A DNA stretch of 34,882 nt from Flavobacteriales bacterium (GTDB lineage Bacteria; Bacteroidota; Bacteroidia; UBA10329), in NCBI GenBank assembly GCA_021739625.1, contig JAIPBJ010000029.1, positions 1 through 34,882 on the forward strand, written 5' to 3'. Position numbers and translations under genes: made by a program. This document shows, one piece after another, positions 19,354 to 33,931 of the stretch. Each line of letters begins with the position of its first letter. Position 1 is the first letter of the stretch. Below the pieces are notes generated by a model. That model was not told where the DNA came from. It made no database searches and saw only the letters and a list, made by a program, of their open reading frames with translations.

Positions 19354-19359
19354 CGCCCA

Positions 19360-19391
19360 ACTTTGAACCTTAAACATTGAACTTTTGAACC
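19360..19391. repeat. Word array ACTTTGA-type (7-8 bp) between ATPase and barrel genes
   Basis: Consecutive words ACTTTGA, ACCTTAA, ACATTGA and ACTTTTGA, then ACC, run from 7 bp upstream of the barrel start to 5 bp short of the ATPase stop. It occupies the ribosome-binding region of the barrel gene. Confidence 0.65.
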
Positions 19392-19395
19392 GTTT

Positions 19396-20082
19396 TCATC
19401 GCCTTTCATCTCTCACAACAACCCCATCCTCCAACGTGATCACCCTGCGTGCGCGGTCTATCACGCGCTGGTCATGCGTGGAAAAGATGAAGGTGATGCC
19501 TTCTTCCTTGTTCAATCGTGCCATGATGTCGAGCAGGTTGGAGGCACTGGCCGAATCGAGGTTGGCGGTGGGCTCATCGGCCAGAACGAAATCGGGTTTG
19601 GAGGCCAACGCCCGCGCCACGGCCACGCGCTGCTGCTGTCCGCCAGAGAGTTCCGTTGGGCGCTTGTCCATCTTGTCGGCAAGGCCCACTTCGCCTAGCA
19701 ATTGCTCCACACGGGCATCTCGCTGCGCCTTCGGGATCTTCTGAAGGAGCATGATGAATTCGGTGTTCTCCTTGGCCGTGAGCACGGGAATCAGGTTGTA
19801 GCTCTGGAACACGAAACCAATGTGTTTCAACCGGAAATCGATCAGTTCGCTGTCGGTCTTGCCTGTCAGTTCGTGGCCGTTCACTTTGACACTGCCTGAA
19901 GTAGGACGGTCGAGACCACCGATCATGTTGAGCAGCGTGGTCTTGCCGCTGCCCGATGGGCCGATGATGGCCGTGAACTCGTTGTCCTCGATGGTCACAT
20001 CCGCACCGCGAACGGCATAGACGGGAACGATGCCTTCGTAGGTCTTGGTCAATGATTTTGTTTCAATTACGTAGTTGGTCAT
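19396..20082 (-). CDS. ABC transporter ATPase, LolD/MacB type
   Basis: 228 residues. It has Walker A GPSGSGKTT (41-49), Q-loop Gln93, signature LSGGQQQR (145-152), Walker B VLADEP (166-171), D-loop ANLDSA and switch His203 (STHD). The stretch HIGFVFQSYNLIPVLTAKEN is typical of the LolD/MacB/FtsE group that pairs with FtsX-like permeases. It should power the two FtsX-type subunits encoded upstream in the same operon. All catalytic residues are intact. The start codon is followed upstream by a CAATNNN array and then the S23 gene. Confidence 0.95.
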   Translation of the reverse strand: MTNYVIETKSLTKTYEGIVPVYAVRGADVTIEDNEFTAIIGPSGSGKTTLLNMIGGLDRPTSGSVKVNGHELTGKTDSELIDFRLKHIGFVFQSYNLIPVLTAKENTEFIMLLQKIPKAQRDARVEQLLGEVGLADKMDKRPTELSGGQQQRVAVARALASKPDFVLADEPTANLDSASASNLLDIMARLNKEEGITFIFSTHDQRVIDRARRVITLEDGVVVRDERR

Positions 20083-20086
20083 TTTT

Positions 20087-20121
20087 CAATTATCAATTAA
20101 CAATGAGCAATTATCAATTTA
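20087..20121. repeat. CAATNNN heptamer array, left arm of S23 cassette 1
   Basis: Five perfect-length heptamers: CAATTAT, CAATTAA, CAATGAG, CAATTAT, CAATTTA. They begin 5 bp upstream of the ATPase start codon. The inverted partner is at 20504-20538. Confidence 0.85.
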
Positions 20122-20140
20122 ATGAGGAAAGTGGACTGAC

Positions 20141-20500
20141 TCATTCCTCTGGCCTATTGGTGGTTCTGATTATGGAGAAGAGAATTCTGAGAATTTCCTC
20201 ACAATCGTTGACCAAATCATCGTATTCATTCTTGGTGATGTATTCTGTGGCATGAAGAAGGCGCAACCAGAATTTCGATTCCCGTGCTTCCTTGTATGAG
20301 ATGCCTAGTTTGGCGCTAAAATCCTTCCTGGAAATTCCGCCAATGGCCTCCTCAGCATTGGCCCCTATTGAGGTTGCACTTCGCATCAATTGCCGCGTCA
20401 GGTCATATTCTCGATGCTCAATTCTTACGCGTTTGCACATCAGCAAGACTTTCACCGCGAAATCAAAACTCTTCGTCAAAATCACATTCTCTGCTGCCAT
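20141..20500 (-). CDS. Four-helix-bundle protein, S23 (23S rRNA intervening-sequence) family
   Basis: 119 residues from ATG 20500 (a GTG lies one codon earlier). The S23 signature is clear: DLTRQLMRSATSIGANAEEA, then ISRKDFSAKLGISYKEARES and FWLRLLHATEYI. The family was named from proteins encoded in intervening sequences of 23S rRNA genes, is also found elsewhere in bacterial genomes, and shares the fold of the Avd protein of diversity-generating retroelements, which binds RNA and reverse transcriptase. Here it sits inside an ABC transporter operon, on the same strand, between inverted CAATNNN arrays. It belongs to a different subgroup from the S23 gene at 23167-23532. Its role is unknown; a selfish or RNA-processing-linked cassette is inferred. 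Confidence 0.85.
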   Translation of the reverse strand: MAAENVILTKSFDFAVKVLLMCKRVRIEHREYDLTRQLMRSATSIGANAEEAIGGISRKDFSAKLGISYKEARESKFWLRLLHATEYITKNEYDDLVNDCEEILRILFSIIRTTNRPEE

Positions 20501-20503
20501 CAC

Positions 20504-20538
20504 GTAATTGTTAATTGCTCATTGATAATTGTTCATTG
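20504..20538. repeat. CAATNNN heptamer array, right arm of S23 cassette 1
   Basis: Read on the minus strand: CAATGAA, CAATTAT, CAATGAG, CAATTAA, CAATTAC, five heptamers. The first word contains the final Gln codon and the TGA stop of the FtsX gene. Aligned with the left arm, 29 of 35 positions match, so the two arms can pair in RNA. Confidence 0.85.
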
Positions 20539-21738
20539 AGTCCTGATGGCTTCAACAGGTATCAACTTCAGGGCTTTTCTCGCAGGGTAAACCGCAGCAA
20601 TGACCGCCATCACTGCTACCATTATGGCTACTTCGAAGTAGCTGCGAATGTCGAGATACGGATAGACGATGCTGGCGAATCCGAGATCGTTGTATGCACC
20701 ACCGAGGTCTATGCCCACTTGACCGAAGTACGAGACCATGCCCCATGATAGCAGCAGCCCCAGCGGCCCACCGATCATGGTGAGCATCACCGTTTCGAAG
20801 AGGATCATGCCGAAGACCTTTCGCTTGGCCATGCCAACGGCCATCAGCACCCCGATCTCGCGAACGCGCTCAAGCACTGCCATAAGCATGGTGTTGAGTA
20901 TGCTGAACAATAGGGCCACCAGTATGATGCCCACGATGAAATAGAGGTAAACGTCCATGGTCTCGATCATGTAGCGCATGCCAGTGGCCAGATCGAGCCA
21001 GGGCAACACCTCCAGTTCGGGATGAGCAGCGCGGTATTTGGCCGCCAGTGGTTCGGCCATGTCATGATCGGTGAGGGACACCGCTATTTCGTGTACACCG
21101 GCCTCGATGCGCATCAGCGCGCGGAGGTCGTCCTGACGCACATAGATGTTCATCTCATCGAACATGCCGTTGCCCGTATCGAAAATTCCGACCACGCGAA
21201 ACGCCCCGGCAATGATCTCGCCATCCAGATCCTGAACGGTGAGCACGAGTTTCGATTTCAGGTCCACCCCATACTTCTCGGCCACTTTACGACTGATGAC
21301 CAGCGGATTGCGCGATGCGCCTTCGAACCACGTGCCGTCCACTACTTTCTCGTTCAGTCCTGTCACCAGGGCCTCTTTCGCAGGGTCGATGCCCATGATG
21401 CGGATGGCGCCCGAACGTCTTGCCGAACCCACCATGCCCATGCTGATGAGCCTTCCAGAAGTGCCCGCAACGGTCGGTTCCTGCTCCACTTCGACCATGA
21501 TCTGGTCTGCATTCGGGATATAGAGACTGGTGAGGAATTCATCGGTGAACTGCGGTCTGTGGAACTGGAAATCGCTCATCTCAAGCTTGATCACACTCTC
21601 GATCTTCTGCCGCATCATGCCTTGCATAAAAGCAGATGCGAACACGCCAGCCAATAGCCCAATAGCAATGGCCGTGATGACCACGATGCTGCGGGTGCGG
21701 TTTCTCCAAATATTTCGCCAAGCGATTTTTAGCAACAT
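20533..21738 (-). CDS. FtsX/LolC-type ABC transporter permease (first)
   Basis: 401 residues from ATG 21738 (MLLKIAWRNIWRN); the upstream in-frame extension is encoded by a repeat array and is rejected. Topology is that of LolC/LolE and MacB-type permeases: TM1 (about 18-40, SIVVITAIAIGLLAGVFA), a large periplasmic domain (about 41-260), then three C-terminal TM segments (about 265-290, 310-340 and 365-390), with the usual VREIGVLMAVGM motif before TM3. With the second FtsX gene it should form a heterodimeric type VII ABC transporter extracting a lipid or lipoprotein from the inner membrane. Stop codon and last Gln codon are shared with the CAATNNN array. Confidence 0.92.
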   Translation of the reverse strand: MLLKIAWRNIWRNRTRSIVVITAIAIGLLAGVFASAFMQGMMRQKIESVIKLEMSDFQFHRPQFTDEFLTSLYIPNADQIMVEVEQEPTVAGTSGRLISMGMVGSARRSGAIRIMGIDPAKEALVTGLNEKVVDGTWFEGASRNPLVISRKVAEKYGVDLKSKLVLTVQDLDGEIIAGAFRVVGIFDTGNGMFDEMNIYVRQDDLRALMRIEAGVHEIAVSLTDHDMAEPLAAKYRAAHPELEVLPWLDLATGMRYMIETMDVYLYFIVGIILVALLFSILNTMLMAVLERVREIGVLMAVGMAKRKVFGMILFETVMLTMIGGPLGLLLSWGMVSYFGQVGIDLGGAYNDLGFASIVYPYLDIRSYFEVAIMVAVMAVIAAVYPARKALKLIPVEAIRTQ

Positions 21739-21741
21739 AGC

Positions 21742-21867
21742 CGTTCGCTTTTCGCCATTCGCTTTTCGCAAAAAAGGCAGGGGTTTGATGTCTGTGAATC
21801 TGAACTCATTTGTTTTTCCACTTCTTGTTTTTCAGTTAGCCGAATGGCGAACAGCGAACAGCGAAAG
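21742..21867. repeat. Inverted pair of GCGAANN heptamer arrays between the FtsX genes
   Basis: The left arm (21742-21769) reads on the minus strand as GCGAAAA, GCGAATG, GCGAAAA, GCGAACG. The right arm (about 21839-21867) reads on the plus strand as (G)CCGAATG, GCGAACA, GCGAACA, GCGAAAG. About 70 bp without an ORF separate them. The left arm ends 3 bp from the start codon of one FtsX gene; the right arm ends 6 bp from the stop of the other. Confidence 0.8.
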
Positions 21868-23095: not shown

Positions 23096-23174
23096 TCAGG
23101 GTGTCAGGTTTTCAGGTAATCAGGAAACGGGTGAATTGGTTGTCAGGAGGTCAGGTTTTCAGGTGATCACGATG
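23096..23174. repeat. TCAGGNNN octamer array, left arm of S23 cassette 2
   Basis: The first block of four octamers is TCAGGGTG, TCAGGTTT, TCAGGTAA, TCAGGAAA (23096-23127). A 15-bp interruption follows, then TCAGGAGG, TCAGGTTT, TCAGGTGA and the degenerate TCACGATG (23143-23174). The S23 stop codon (TCA on the plus strand, 23167-23169) lies inside the last word. Confidence 0.85.
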
Positions 23175-23532
23175 GAAGGGACTTGGAAAGGTTGGCAATG
23201 AAACGGGCAAGCATTTTCCGTTCTTCATCAAGTTGGGAATTCAGCTTTTCTATGAGATCAGTGGGTACCGAGAAACGCCTTTGGACTATCAGAGCCTGTG
23301 TCTGAAGCTCGAATGTTGAACCAAGTGCTGTTTCCAGATACTGGATAAAGTGCCTGTCACTCTTGCGAGAACAACCCTCCGCGATGTTGCTTGGAATACT
23401 GACACTGCATCGCGCCATCTGTGTTCTTAGTCCAAAGCGTTCTGAATCAGGAAGCAGAGCAATAAGGTCGTACGTTGTTTCGACCACACCCATTCCGCGT
23501 TGCCAAATGGTCAAATCCTTAAAATCTCTCAT
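23167..23532 (-). CDS. Four-helix-bundle protein, S23 family (second, different subgroup)
   Basis: 121 residues: MRDFKDLTIWQRGMGVVETT, then LRTQMARCSVSIPSNIAEG and FIQYLETALGSTFELQTQ. These are the hallmark S23/four-helix-bundle motifs (Q-x-x-R-x-x-S-I-P-x-N-I-A-E-G and L-x-x-A-x-G-S-x-x-E-L). It is only distantly similar to the S23 protein at 20141-20500, so the two are independent insertions rather than a recent duplication. It is encoded on the operon strand between the LolA-like and FtsX genes, enclosed by inverted TCAGGNNN arrays. No catalytic residues are known for the family; RNA-associated behaviour is inferred from the Avd fold. Confidence 0.88.
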   Translation of the reverse strand: MRDFKDLTIWQRGMGVVETTYDLIALLPDSERFGLRTQMARCSVSIPSNIAEGCSRKSDRHFIQYLETALGSTFELQTQALIVQRRFSVPTDLIEKLNSQLDEERKMLARFIANLSKSLPS

Positions 23533-23549: not shown

Positions 23550-23589
23550 AACTCTGATTTCCTGATCACCTGACACCCTGATTTCCTGA
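23550..23589. repeat. TCAGGNNN octamer array, right arm of S23 cassette 2
   Basis: Read on the minus strand: TCAGGAAA, TCAGGGTG, TCAGGTGA, TCAGGAAA, TCAGAGTT, five octamers. It begins 5 bp after the stop of the LolA-like gene and ends 17 bp before the S23 start codon. Shifting by one word, 25 of 32 positions match the first block of the left arm. Confidence 0.85.
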
Positions 23590-23594
23590 CCACC

Positions 23595-24389
23595 TTACTT
23601 CACCGTTTTCATGTTCGATGTACTGAAGAAGGAATCCTCCAGCGGCTTGTCAAACTCGATCGCGGTGATCTCCATCATGGTCTTGTTGCCGGGTTTGTCC
23701 ACAGGGATCATCTCCATTTTGGCAGCCAGTTTCTTGCCGCCCATTTCCTTGATGTCGGAAGAGTTGAGGATGTTGACAAGCGCACCGTCCTCGTCATACA
23801 TCTCGCTGCGGAGCTGGATGAGATCGGCCCTGTCGATGAAGAGGACGATCTTGCCCCAGACCACGGCCGCTTCGGGCTTGGGGTCGAGCTGGATCTTGTA
23901 ACACTTTCGGCCCAAGATTGTGCTGTCGCCCGTTATCTTCTGGGTGTAGTCGTTGAGGGTGGACGATTCGCGCACCAGGTCATCGTTGGTGAAATCGGTG
24001 CCCATCCAGCTCTGCATCATCATGCTGGGCGGCAACTTGATGGTGCGCTCAATGCTGGGCATCCAGTTCCATATCTCCTTGTCGCGCTTGAGGAAGGCAA
24101 CGCCTTTGTCCTTGGCCGGTGCTCTGACCACCGAGAGGCTCATCTTCTCGCCCTTGCTCCAGCTTTTGAGGGTCATTTCGCGGGTCCATTTGGGGCGCAC
24201 GGTGGTGATGGTCATCTCGGTGATGGCCGATTTGGTACCGCGCATCTTCTGGTCGGCCTTTTCGATGATCTCGCGGGCGGTTTGGGCTTGCGCGCCAAGG
24301 GCGATGGCGGAAAGGAGGAGGGTTAGTGCGAGGCGCGATAGAGCTGTTCGCCATTCGCCATTCGCTGTTCGGATTGTGTAAAAAGCCAT
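23595..24389 (-). CDS. LolA-like outer-membrane lipoprotein-sorting protein with repeat-derived N-terminus
   Basis: 264 residues if started at ATG 24389. The mature domain (AREIIEKADQKMRGTKSAIT...) matches the LolA_like 'outer membrane lipoprotein-sorting protein' family: MTLKSWSKGEKMSLSVV, WNWMPSIERTIKLPP, WMGTDFTNDDLVRES and IEFDKPLEDSFF. Such periplasmic proteins carry a lipid or lipoprotein between membranes, fitting the FtsX/ATPase and barrel genes downstream. The signal core (LALTLLLSAIALGAQAQ) is preceded by IRTANGEWRTALSR, which is the translation of a GCGAANN array. No ATG lies between array and signal core, so the array seems to have replaced the original start. An ATG at 24485 would extend the protein through a further array. 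Confidence 0.85.
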   Translation of the reverse strand: MAFYTIRTANGEWRTALSRLALTLLLSAIALGAQAQTAREIIEKADQKMRGTKSAITEMTITTVRPKWTREMTLKSWSKGEKMSLSVVRAPAKDKGVAFLKRDKEIWNWMPSIERTIKLPPSMMMQSWMGTDFTNDDLVRESSTLNDYTQKITGDSTILGRKCYKIQLDPKPEAAVVWGKIVLFIDRADLIQLRSEMYDEDGALVNILNSSDIKEMGGKKLAAKMEMIPVDKPGNKTMMEITAIEFDKPLEDSFFSTSNMKTVK

Positions 24390-24561
24390 TCGCTGTTCGC
24401 CATTCGCTGTTCGGGCAATGGGAGAAGCTATTTGCTGGTCACTGTTTACTGTTTTGAGAAACAGGTTTTTCGGATGGAGATTCATGTTATGGTTGATATG
24501 TGCTCATGTTTTTGATTTGGCGAATGGCGAAAAGCAAATGGCGAATAGCGAATGGCGAACA
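24345..24561. repeat. Inverted GCGAANN arrays with an inner CTGTTTA array, TetR-LolA junction
   Basis: The left arm (24345-24414) holds eight heptamers on the minus strand in two blocks (words such as GCGAACA and GCGAATG), split by 14 bp. The right arm (24520-24561) holds six heptamers on the plus strand: GCGAATG, GCGAAAA, GCAAATG, GCGAATA, GCGAATG, GCGAACA. Between them, CTGGTCA, CTGTTTA, CTGTTTT (24435-24455) forms a second word family. The right arm stops 8 bp short of the TetR stop; the left arm runs into the LolA-like coding region. Confidence 0.8.
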
Positions 24562-31714: not shown

Positions 31715-31722
31715 GCGGGCTA

Positions 31723-31868
31723 TTTGCTGTTCGCTGTTCGCCTTTCGCGTATTCGTACCCAGTAAAGCAAGCTGTGAGCTCCCGATGGTCGGTTCGTAAT
31801 TATTGCGTTCCGCAATGAGAGGCAGTTTGTAGCCGCCCTCAATCGCCAATCGTTAATCGATAATCGTT
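31723..31868. repeat. Heptamer arrays GCGAANN and AATCGNN flanking a mini-hairpin
   Basis: The first array (31723-31748) on the minus strand is GCGAAAG, GCGAACA, GCGAACA plus a degenerate unit. The second (31841-31868) is AATCGCC, AATCGTT, AATCGAT, AATCGTT. Between them lies a copy of the CTCAYTGC-N5-GCARTAA mini-hairpin (31800-31819, minus strand). Together they fill most of the 173-bp spacer. Confidence 0.65.
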
Positions 31869-33541: not shown

Positions 33542-33800
33542 CTCACTGCTTTTCGCAGTAACCGACCAACGGGAGCTCACTGCCAACGGCAGTAATCGAG
33601 AACCATGGCACCGACCCTTCTCCCGCTCCCCACCTTGTCTCCGTCCCTCGTGTCTCTATCGTCCCTGAGTTTATTCTGAGCTGTCCTCCTGAGCGAACCG
33701 ATCCGCCATAGACGGAGAGCTCATTGCGGAACGCAGTAAGTCGAAGGGCGAACAGCGAACAGCGAACCGACCGAAGCGAGCTCATTGCCTTCTGCAATAA
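33542..33800. repeat. Four copies of a CTCAYTGC-N5-GCARTAA mini-hairpin
   Basis: Copies at 33542-33561, 33576-33595, 33720-33739 and 33781-33800, each with an 8-5-7 layout and conserved arms around a variable 5-base loop (ttttc, caacg, ggaac, cttct). A fifth copy in inverse orientation is at 31800-31819. Several are embedded in GAGCGAA/TCGAAGG-like flanks. Confidence 0.75.
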
Positions 33801-33872
33801 TCTCAAGCAGAGCAATGCAAGCTGTCGATGGCGAAAGGCGAACAGCGAATGGCGAAAGGCGAACAGCGAACA
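33741..33872. repeat. GCGAANN heptamer arrays upstream of the TPR gene
   Basis: The first block (33741-33768) is TCGAAGG, GCGAACA, GCGAACA, GCGAACC. The second (33831-33872) is GCGAAAG, GCGAACA, GCGAATG, GCGAAAG, GCGAACA, GCGAACA. Both are in the same orientation. The second block ends 59 bp before the TPR start codon and occupies the likely -33 region of its promoter. Confidence 0.8.
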
Positions 33873-33931
33873 GCTCATCCCCCAACATTTTTTACCTTCA
33901 TCCCACATTACAGCAACGAACCCTCCTTGCC

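Follow-up and report, generated by a model that had tools for sequence, protein, structure and literature searches.

What accounts for an S23 gene that lies between the permease and ATPase genes of a bacterial operon, with two arrays of one seven-base word facing each other across it? The question was addressed in the window, the whole 34,882-nucleotide stretch of contig JAIPBJ010000029.1 from a Flavobacteriales bacterium, and in its genome (G000), a draft of 179 contigs that is 96% complete. To our knowledge, S23 genes have no known function so far. The locus, which we call the first cassette, and its host genes comprise the following features.

20533..21729, minus strand: LolC/E-like FtsX-domain permease, the upstream host gene
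20504..20538, minus strand: upstream arm (in the sense of S23), CAATGAA CAATTAT CAATGAG CAATTAA CAATTAC
20141..20503, minus strand: S23 gene (four helix bundle; PF05635/TIGR02436; 120 aa)
20087..20121, plus strand: downstream arm, CAATTAT CAATTAA CAATGAG CAATTAT CAATTTA, an inverted copy of the upstream arm
19396..20082, minus strand: LolD-like ABC ATPase, the downstream host gene

The two 35-bp arms, each made of five CAATNNN words, enclose the S23 gene in inverted orientation. The first-pass annotation had counted 29 matches in 35 positions; we obtained the same count in its register, and 30 of 35 when the register was shifted by one or two bases. The local arm-match score of 24.0 was reached by none of 2000 second-order Markov shuffles of both flanks (maximum 14.0), and flanks swapped in from other S23 loci gave at most 18. 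Both CAATNNN arrays were also detected by TRF. Thirteen period-7 arrays were found in the window, against 0.0 expected in Markov sequence, and its two period-8 arrays flank, as arms, a second S23 gene described below.

The arms fit closely between the coding sequences. As had been read from the sequence before, the right arm opens with the last permease codon (CAA TGA on the sense strand) and so provides the permease stop codon; it stops 1-4 nt short of the S23 start codon (GTG 20503 or ATG 20500). The downstream arm ends 4 bp ahead of the ATPase ATG on the sense strand. The inverted matching ends resemble terminal inverted repeats, and S23, the sole ORF between them, matched PF05635 alone in Pfam, so that the cassette encodes no transposase. 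ATGA stands at both sides of the cassette, but ATGA is also the stop/start sequence; no consistent target-site duplication was found, and none at the second cassette. No rRNA match was obtained in the 18-26 kb part of the window, and by its location between the permease and ATPase genes the first cassette is not an intervening sequence (IVS) of 23S rRNA. A known RNA family in the operon and a role in anti-phage defence were both considered and rejected, the former for want of any match and the latter for want of a PADLOC match.

The AlphaFold model of S23 is a confident four-helix bundle (pLDDT 95.8), and its TM scores of 0.77/0.86 to Avd bear out the Avd-like fold that had been proposed. We know of no catalytic motif in S23. 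The link to reverse transcriptase proposed along with the fold gained no backing, as a search of the 96% complete genome G000 revealed no RVT_1 protein. A Y1 transposase as a common partner was also rejected, being absent from two carriers of S23 cassettes, G004 and G006. The nearest solved structures, 2RLD (45% identical) and 2GSC, have five chains each, and a toroidal homopentamer has been described for the Xanthomonas protein (PMC4990558).

The upstream host gene had been labelled ftsX; the FtsX domain is present, and the gene is better read as a LolC/E-like permease beside a LolD-like ATPase. The gene order TetR - LolA-like - permease - permease - ATPase - DUF1302-like is kept across the genus. 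In the window, this operon contains a second S23 gene with its own inverted 8-bp arms, which the first-pass annotation had overlooked, and two inverted array pairs that enclose no gene.

23554..23598, minus strand: upstream arm of the second cassette, 8-bp word TCAGGNNN
23167..23532, minus strand: second S23 gene, between the LolA-like gene and the first permease
23096..23163, plus strand: downstream arm of the second cassette, 8-bp word TCAGGNNN
21744-21769 and 21841-21865: gene-less inverted GCGAANN pair, 71 bp apart, between the two permease genes
24347-24413 and 24518-24559: gene-less inverted GCGAANN pair, between the TetR and LolA-like genes

The arm score of the second cassette was 22.0, which was again reached by none of 2000 shuffles. 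Both GCGAANN pairs run TTCGC...GCGAA, a polarity opposite to that of the S23 cassettes, and the pair at 21744..21865 was not seen at the equivalent junction in three congeners (G003, G002 and G001). Further GCGAANN arrays, also with no S23, lie at 31719-31748 and 33742-33874 of the window; the S23 genes found in the genome include none with precisely this word, L006 coming nearest. The arrays at 24347-24485 reach into the annotated N-terminus of the LolA-like protein (RTANGEQRMA..., RTANGEWRTA), and hence the true start of this ORF is uncertain. A single TTYAANG array at 19359-19385 overlaps the start of the DUF1302-like gene, and its word is that of an S23 gene on another contig (L003).

An empty site had been called for as a check, and it was found: G003, G002 and G001 have the operon with neither S23 gene, and at the corresponding junctions stop and start codons overlap or lie from a few to about 40 bp apart. 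In G003, the closest congener (ATPase 95% identical), the permease stop overlaps the ATPase start (ATGA), and the junction between the LolA-like and permease genes is a few bp. The operon of G004 (L121, G004:C2:43000-53500) has an S23 gene at each of three junctions, every one with a different word; one of the three occupies the junction of the second window cassette, but with a different word. The permease/ATPase junction is taken in G004 by a GxxExxY-type gene flanked by inverted ACGAAT-type arrays, and in G005 by a DUF559 gene.

Among the occupied sites, one in the genus was found to contain two unrelated cassettes in different species, with S23 proteins 38-45% identical and flanks 83-88% identical. 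At 17 sites occupied in several species, the arm match was 17.3 within an element versus 9.2 between species (230 pairs), and words were common only to pairs with an S23 protein identity above about 60-70%. The S23 tree requires 32 site changes, where the minimum is 16 and shuffling gives 49.8. Since S23 occupies some sites in several families, vertical descent accounts for part of the record. By these comparisons, the cassettes have in part been inherited in place and in part been replaced.

The flanks of S23 genes were surveyed, as the first-pass annotation had proposed. S23 genes are present in 26 of 29 genomes of the class, in up to 12 copies each, and all six of those in this genome have inverted arms, with six different words. 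Among 94 loci from the 29 genomes, 68 exceeded the 99th percentile of swapped flanks in tests on fixed windows, against about 1 expected, while the direct orientation gave 10 of 94; with a slightly different flank definition, 54 of 92 S23 loci passed. None of 18 permease control loci exceeded the threshold for inverted flanks. The period was 7 in 51 of 72 S23 loci and 8 in 17, and each arm holds about 4-5 word units. The cassettes are codirectional with the upstream gene in 118:5 cases and with the downstream gene in 112:12, counts in which neighbours were called by ORF length and loci that share a site are not independent. The median gap is 3 nt from stop codon to arm and 7 nt from arm to the next start. 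Two loci, L005 and L006, carry a third array on the upstream side, placed between the outer arm and S23 and inverted to that arm, which makes this side a small hairpin pair of its own.

Period-7/8 inverted arms were also found in most of 80 named loci from many phyla (Bacteroidota, Planctomycetes, Acidobacteria, Proteobacteria, Clostridia, Fibrobacter, Verrucomicrobia and candidate phyla), a set drawn from a narrower S23 alignment and skewed toward relatives of one S23 subgroup. Because related loci have words in common, the null is raised in this set, and only 34 of the 80 surpassed it. G004 has 12 S23 genes and yet five period-7/8 arrays in 400 kb of S23-free DNA, and its arms therefore accompany S23 and are not background. 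Inverted ends occur at 12 of 28 GxxExxY loci (PF13366; L136-L165), with CACAGAG-like words, and at 8 of 22 DUF559 loci (PF04480; L166-L195), with CCCCCTTTnAAAGGGGG-like words; period-7/8 arrays on both sides were found at none of them. These findings suggest that GxxExxY and DUF559, small PD-(D/E)XK-like or endonuclease-like families, are parallel cassette families.

Words of the S23 arms also occur away from S23 genes. In 462 kb of G000 we found 46 arrays outside S23 loci, and their match to the six words of this genome averaged 14.2, as compared with 8.83 for six foreign words (sd 0.91, maximum 12.55 in 2000 sets). A whole-genome search with CAATNNNx5 gave about 31 runs on 21 contigs of G000 and 0-1 in eight congeners; TCAGGNNNx4 was nearly confined to G000, and TAAGNNNx4 was present in the three genomes that have an S23 with the TAAG word, plus one place in G002. 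Several of the CAAT places consist of two inverted arrays with no gene between them, spaced by 26-72 bp and of the same polarity as the S23 cassette. At one such place, arrays are missing from G003 and G002, and G001 seems to carry a different word. No S23 remnants were found in the gene-less pairs. The match of dispersed arrays to own words was not replicated in 400 kb of G004 and was weak in G021; orphan arrays as a general companion of S23, a pattern that holds in G000, were accordingly rejected.

The cassettes thus are insertions with matching arms and a gene-specific word; they lie in sense orientation, recur widely, and have lineage-specific copies of their words. An IVS-like insertion within an mRNA, as had been proposed for this locus, is well supported by the empty sites, the Coxiella-like anatomy described below and the sense orientation in the operon. 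We consider, with a probability of roughly 0.58, that the S23 gene and its two inverted arrays form a discrete inserted cassette, kin to the S23-bearing IVSs of 23S rRNA. The arrays would be the ends of the element, and the S23 ring, presumed to be a pentamer as in the solved relatives, would bind its own word at a pitch of 7-8 bp, with about five units to an arm. Such a gene-word pair could let both the cassette and its gene-less copies spread, as RAYT genes and their cognate REPs do, and the strand-cutting machinery may be host-derived. In the transcript, the arms would pair, and RNase III may nick them as it does the rRNA IVSs; this is probably a consequence and not what keeps the arms alike. 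Counted against the cassette reading are the want of a known catalytic motif in S23, the missing transposase and reverse-transcriptase partners, the missing consistent target-site duplication, the partly vertical record and the match of dispersed arrays to own words that failed in G004 and was weak in G021. To these is added a register-specific arm match (0.844 vs 0.713 with shuffled units) that exceeds what word binding alone needs.

A broader form of the proposal, which we advance tentatively and would put at somewhat below even odds, is that S23 is the specificity factor of phylum-spanning minimal mobile elements at operon stop/start junctions. Each ring would recognise its own inverted 7-8 bp array and move itself and gene-less pairs, and the S23-bearing rRNA IVSs would be members that landed in rRNA. 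Such a proposal points to mobile elements that can do without a recognised transposase and without their own reverse transcriptase.

The alternative that survives best, although we think it unlikely, places the function at the RNA level: the arms form a stem in the polycistronic mRNA, and RNase III cuts out the S23 portion, leaving permease and ATPase as separate messages. The strong sense orientation of the cassettes suits this reading. The arms can indeed pair in the transcript, as had been anticipated. The predicted fold pairs them (z -2.54; -2.93 for the second cassette), the arm duplex of the first cassette was calculated as -29.6 kcal/mol, and arms with their units in order pair better than arms with shuffled units (median -32.0 vs -25.4). 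In the Coxiella IVS, the first heptamer is where RNase III cuts (PMC4990558). However, any inverted repeat would pair anyway, and a plain stem gives no reason for the period of 7/8 bp or the core-and-spacer pattern. G-U-compatible arm mismatches were not enriched (102 vs 138 for the mirror class); the wobble test thus gave no support for selection on the RNA stem, and it is not visibly the stem that selection preserves.

Under autoregulation, the S23 ring would wrap the array of its 5' leader, in the way TRAP wraps its repeats, and repress translation; the cassette would then be a regulated gene and not a mobile element. The upstream arm lies directly ahead of the S23 start in the first cassette and typically at the other loci, and about 4-5 units per arm would suit the pentameric relatives. 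The words are also of a core-and-spacer type, with 3.25 invariant phases per pair versus 1.73 at random (82 of 93 pairs), values that inheritance from unit to unit can inflate. We nevertheless regard this reading as quite improbable: in the mRNA the downstream arm is the complement of the word, so that one single-strand binder misses one arm, and the inverted arms, the empty sites and the gene-less inverted pairs are left unexplained. That S23 merely settled among ordinary intergenic heptamer arrays is very improbable and largely refuted: many arrays lie away from S23 in G000 (46 in 462 kb) and Bacteroidetes and Cyanobacteria are known to carry heptamer repeats (PMC4679880), but G004 combines 12 S23 genes with five S23-free arrays in 400 kb, both arms of a locus have one word in common far above swapped flanks, and the ends of GxxExxY and DUF559 genes are of other kinds, none with period-7/8 arrays on both sides.

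The reading as an inserted S23 cassette can be set against several known systems. The 23S rRNA IVS of Coxiella burnetii has an S23 ORF, tandem heptamers (GACAGAT x2-3 plus GACAGAA) before its start and inverted ends, and its heptamer number varies (PMC4990558). The present cassette is alike in its S23 ORF, heptamers before the start, pairable inverted ends, length of about 430 bp and patchy presence, whereas it lies between protein genes in an operon and not in an rRNA helix, and it has its own word. A general pattern of S23 with arrays would account for the Coxiella heptamers, and the gene-specific inverted word arrays would give S23 its first testable partner. In the literature searched, the Coxiella IVS paper (PMC4990558) alone joins S23, heptamers and IVS; most subscription papers and preprints lay outside this search, and an earlier notice is possible.

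The TAACTGA heptamers of Beggiatoaceae, Cyanobacteria and Bacteroidetes are intergenic and tandem, often stand just before starts, and turn over rapidly between strains (PMC4679880). They differ in being direct repeats of one fixed word, and that paper makes no mention of S23. For the intergenic heptamer repeats of Bacteroidetes, or at least some of them, the S23 cassettes are a candidate source. Avd of the diversity-generating retroelements (4DWL, 8UB7) has the same fold and a pentameric ring, whereas the S23 cassette is not part of a retroelement, no reverse transcriptase having been found in G000. The diverse words, each paired with its own protein, would also be well suited to working out how nucleic acid is read by a small helical ring.

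Finally, RAYT is a Y1 (HUH) transposase that cuts palindromic REPs tagged with GTAG/GTGG (PMC3686654, PMC3116915). Likeness to this system lies in the inverted cognate repeats around the gene, the close inverted doublets (REPINs) and the switching of words between orthologues. For dispersed cognate copies the picture is mixed: they occur in G000 and in the genomes with the TAAG word, but were not found in 400 kb of G004, and the pattern is weak in G021. S23, however, is a four-helix bundle with no known nuclease, and its words are tandem, 7-8 bp long and not palindromic. Because the gene and repeat types differ, the cassette is not a member of the REP/RAYT system, which is its closest working model (PMC3686654).
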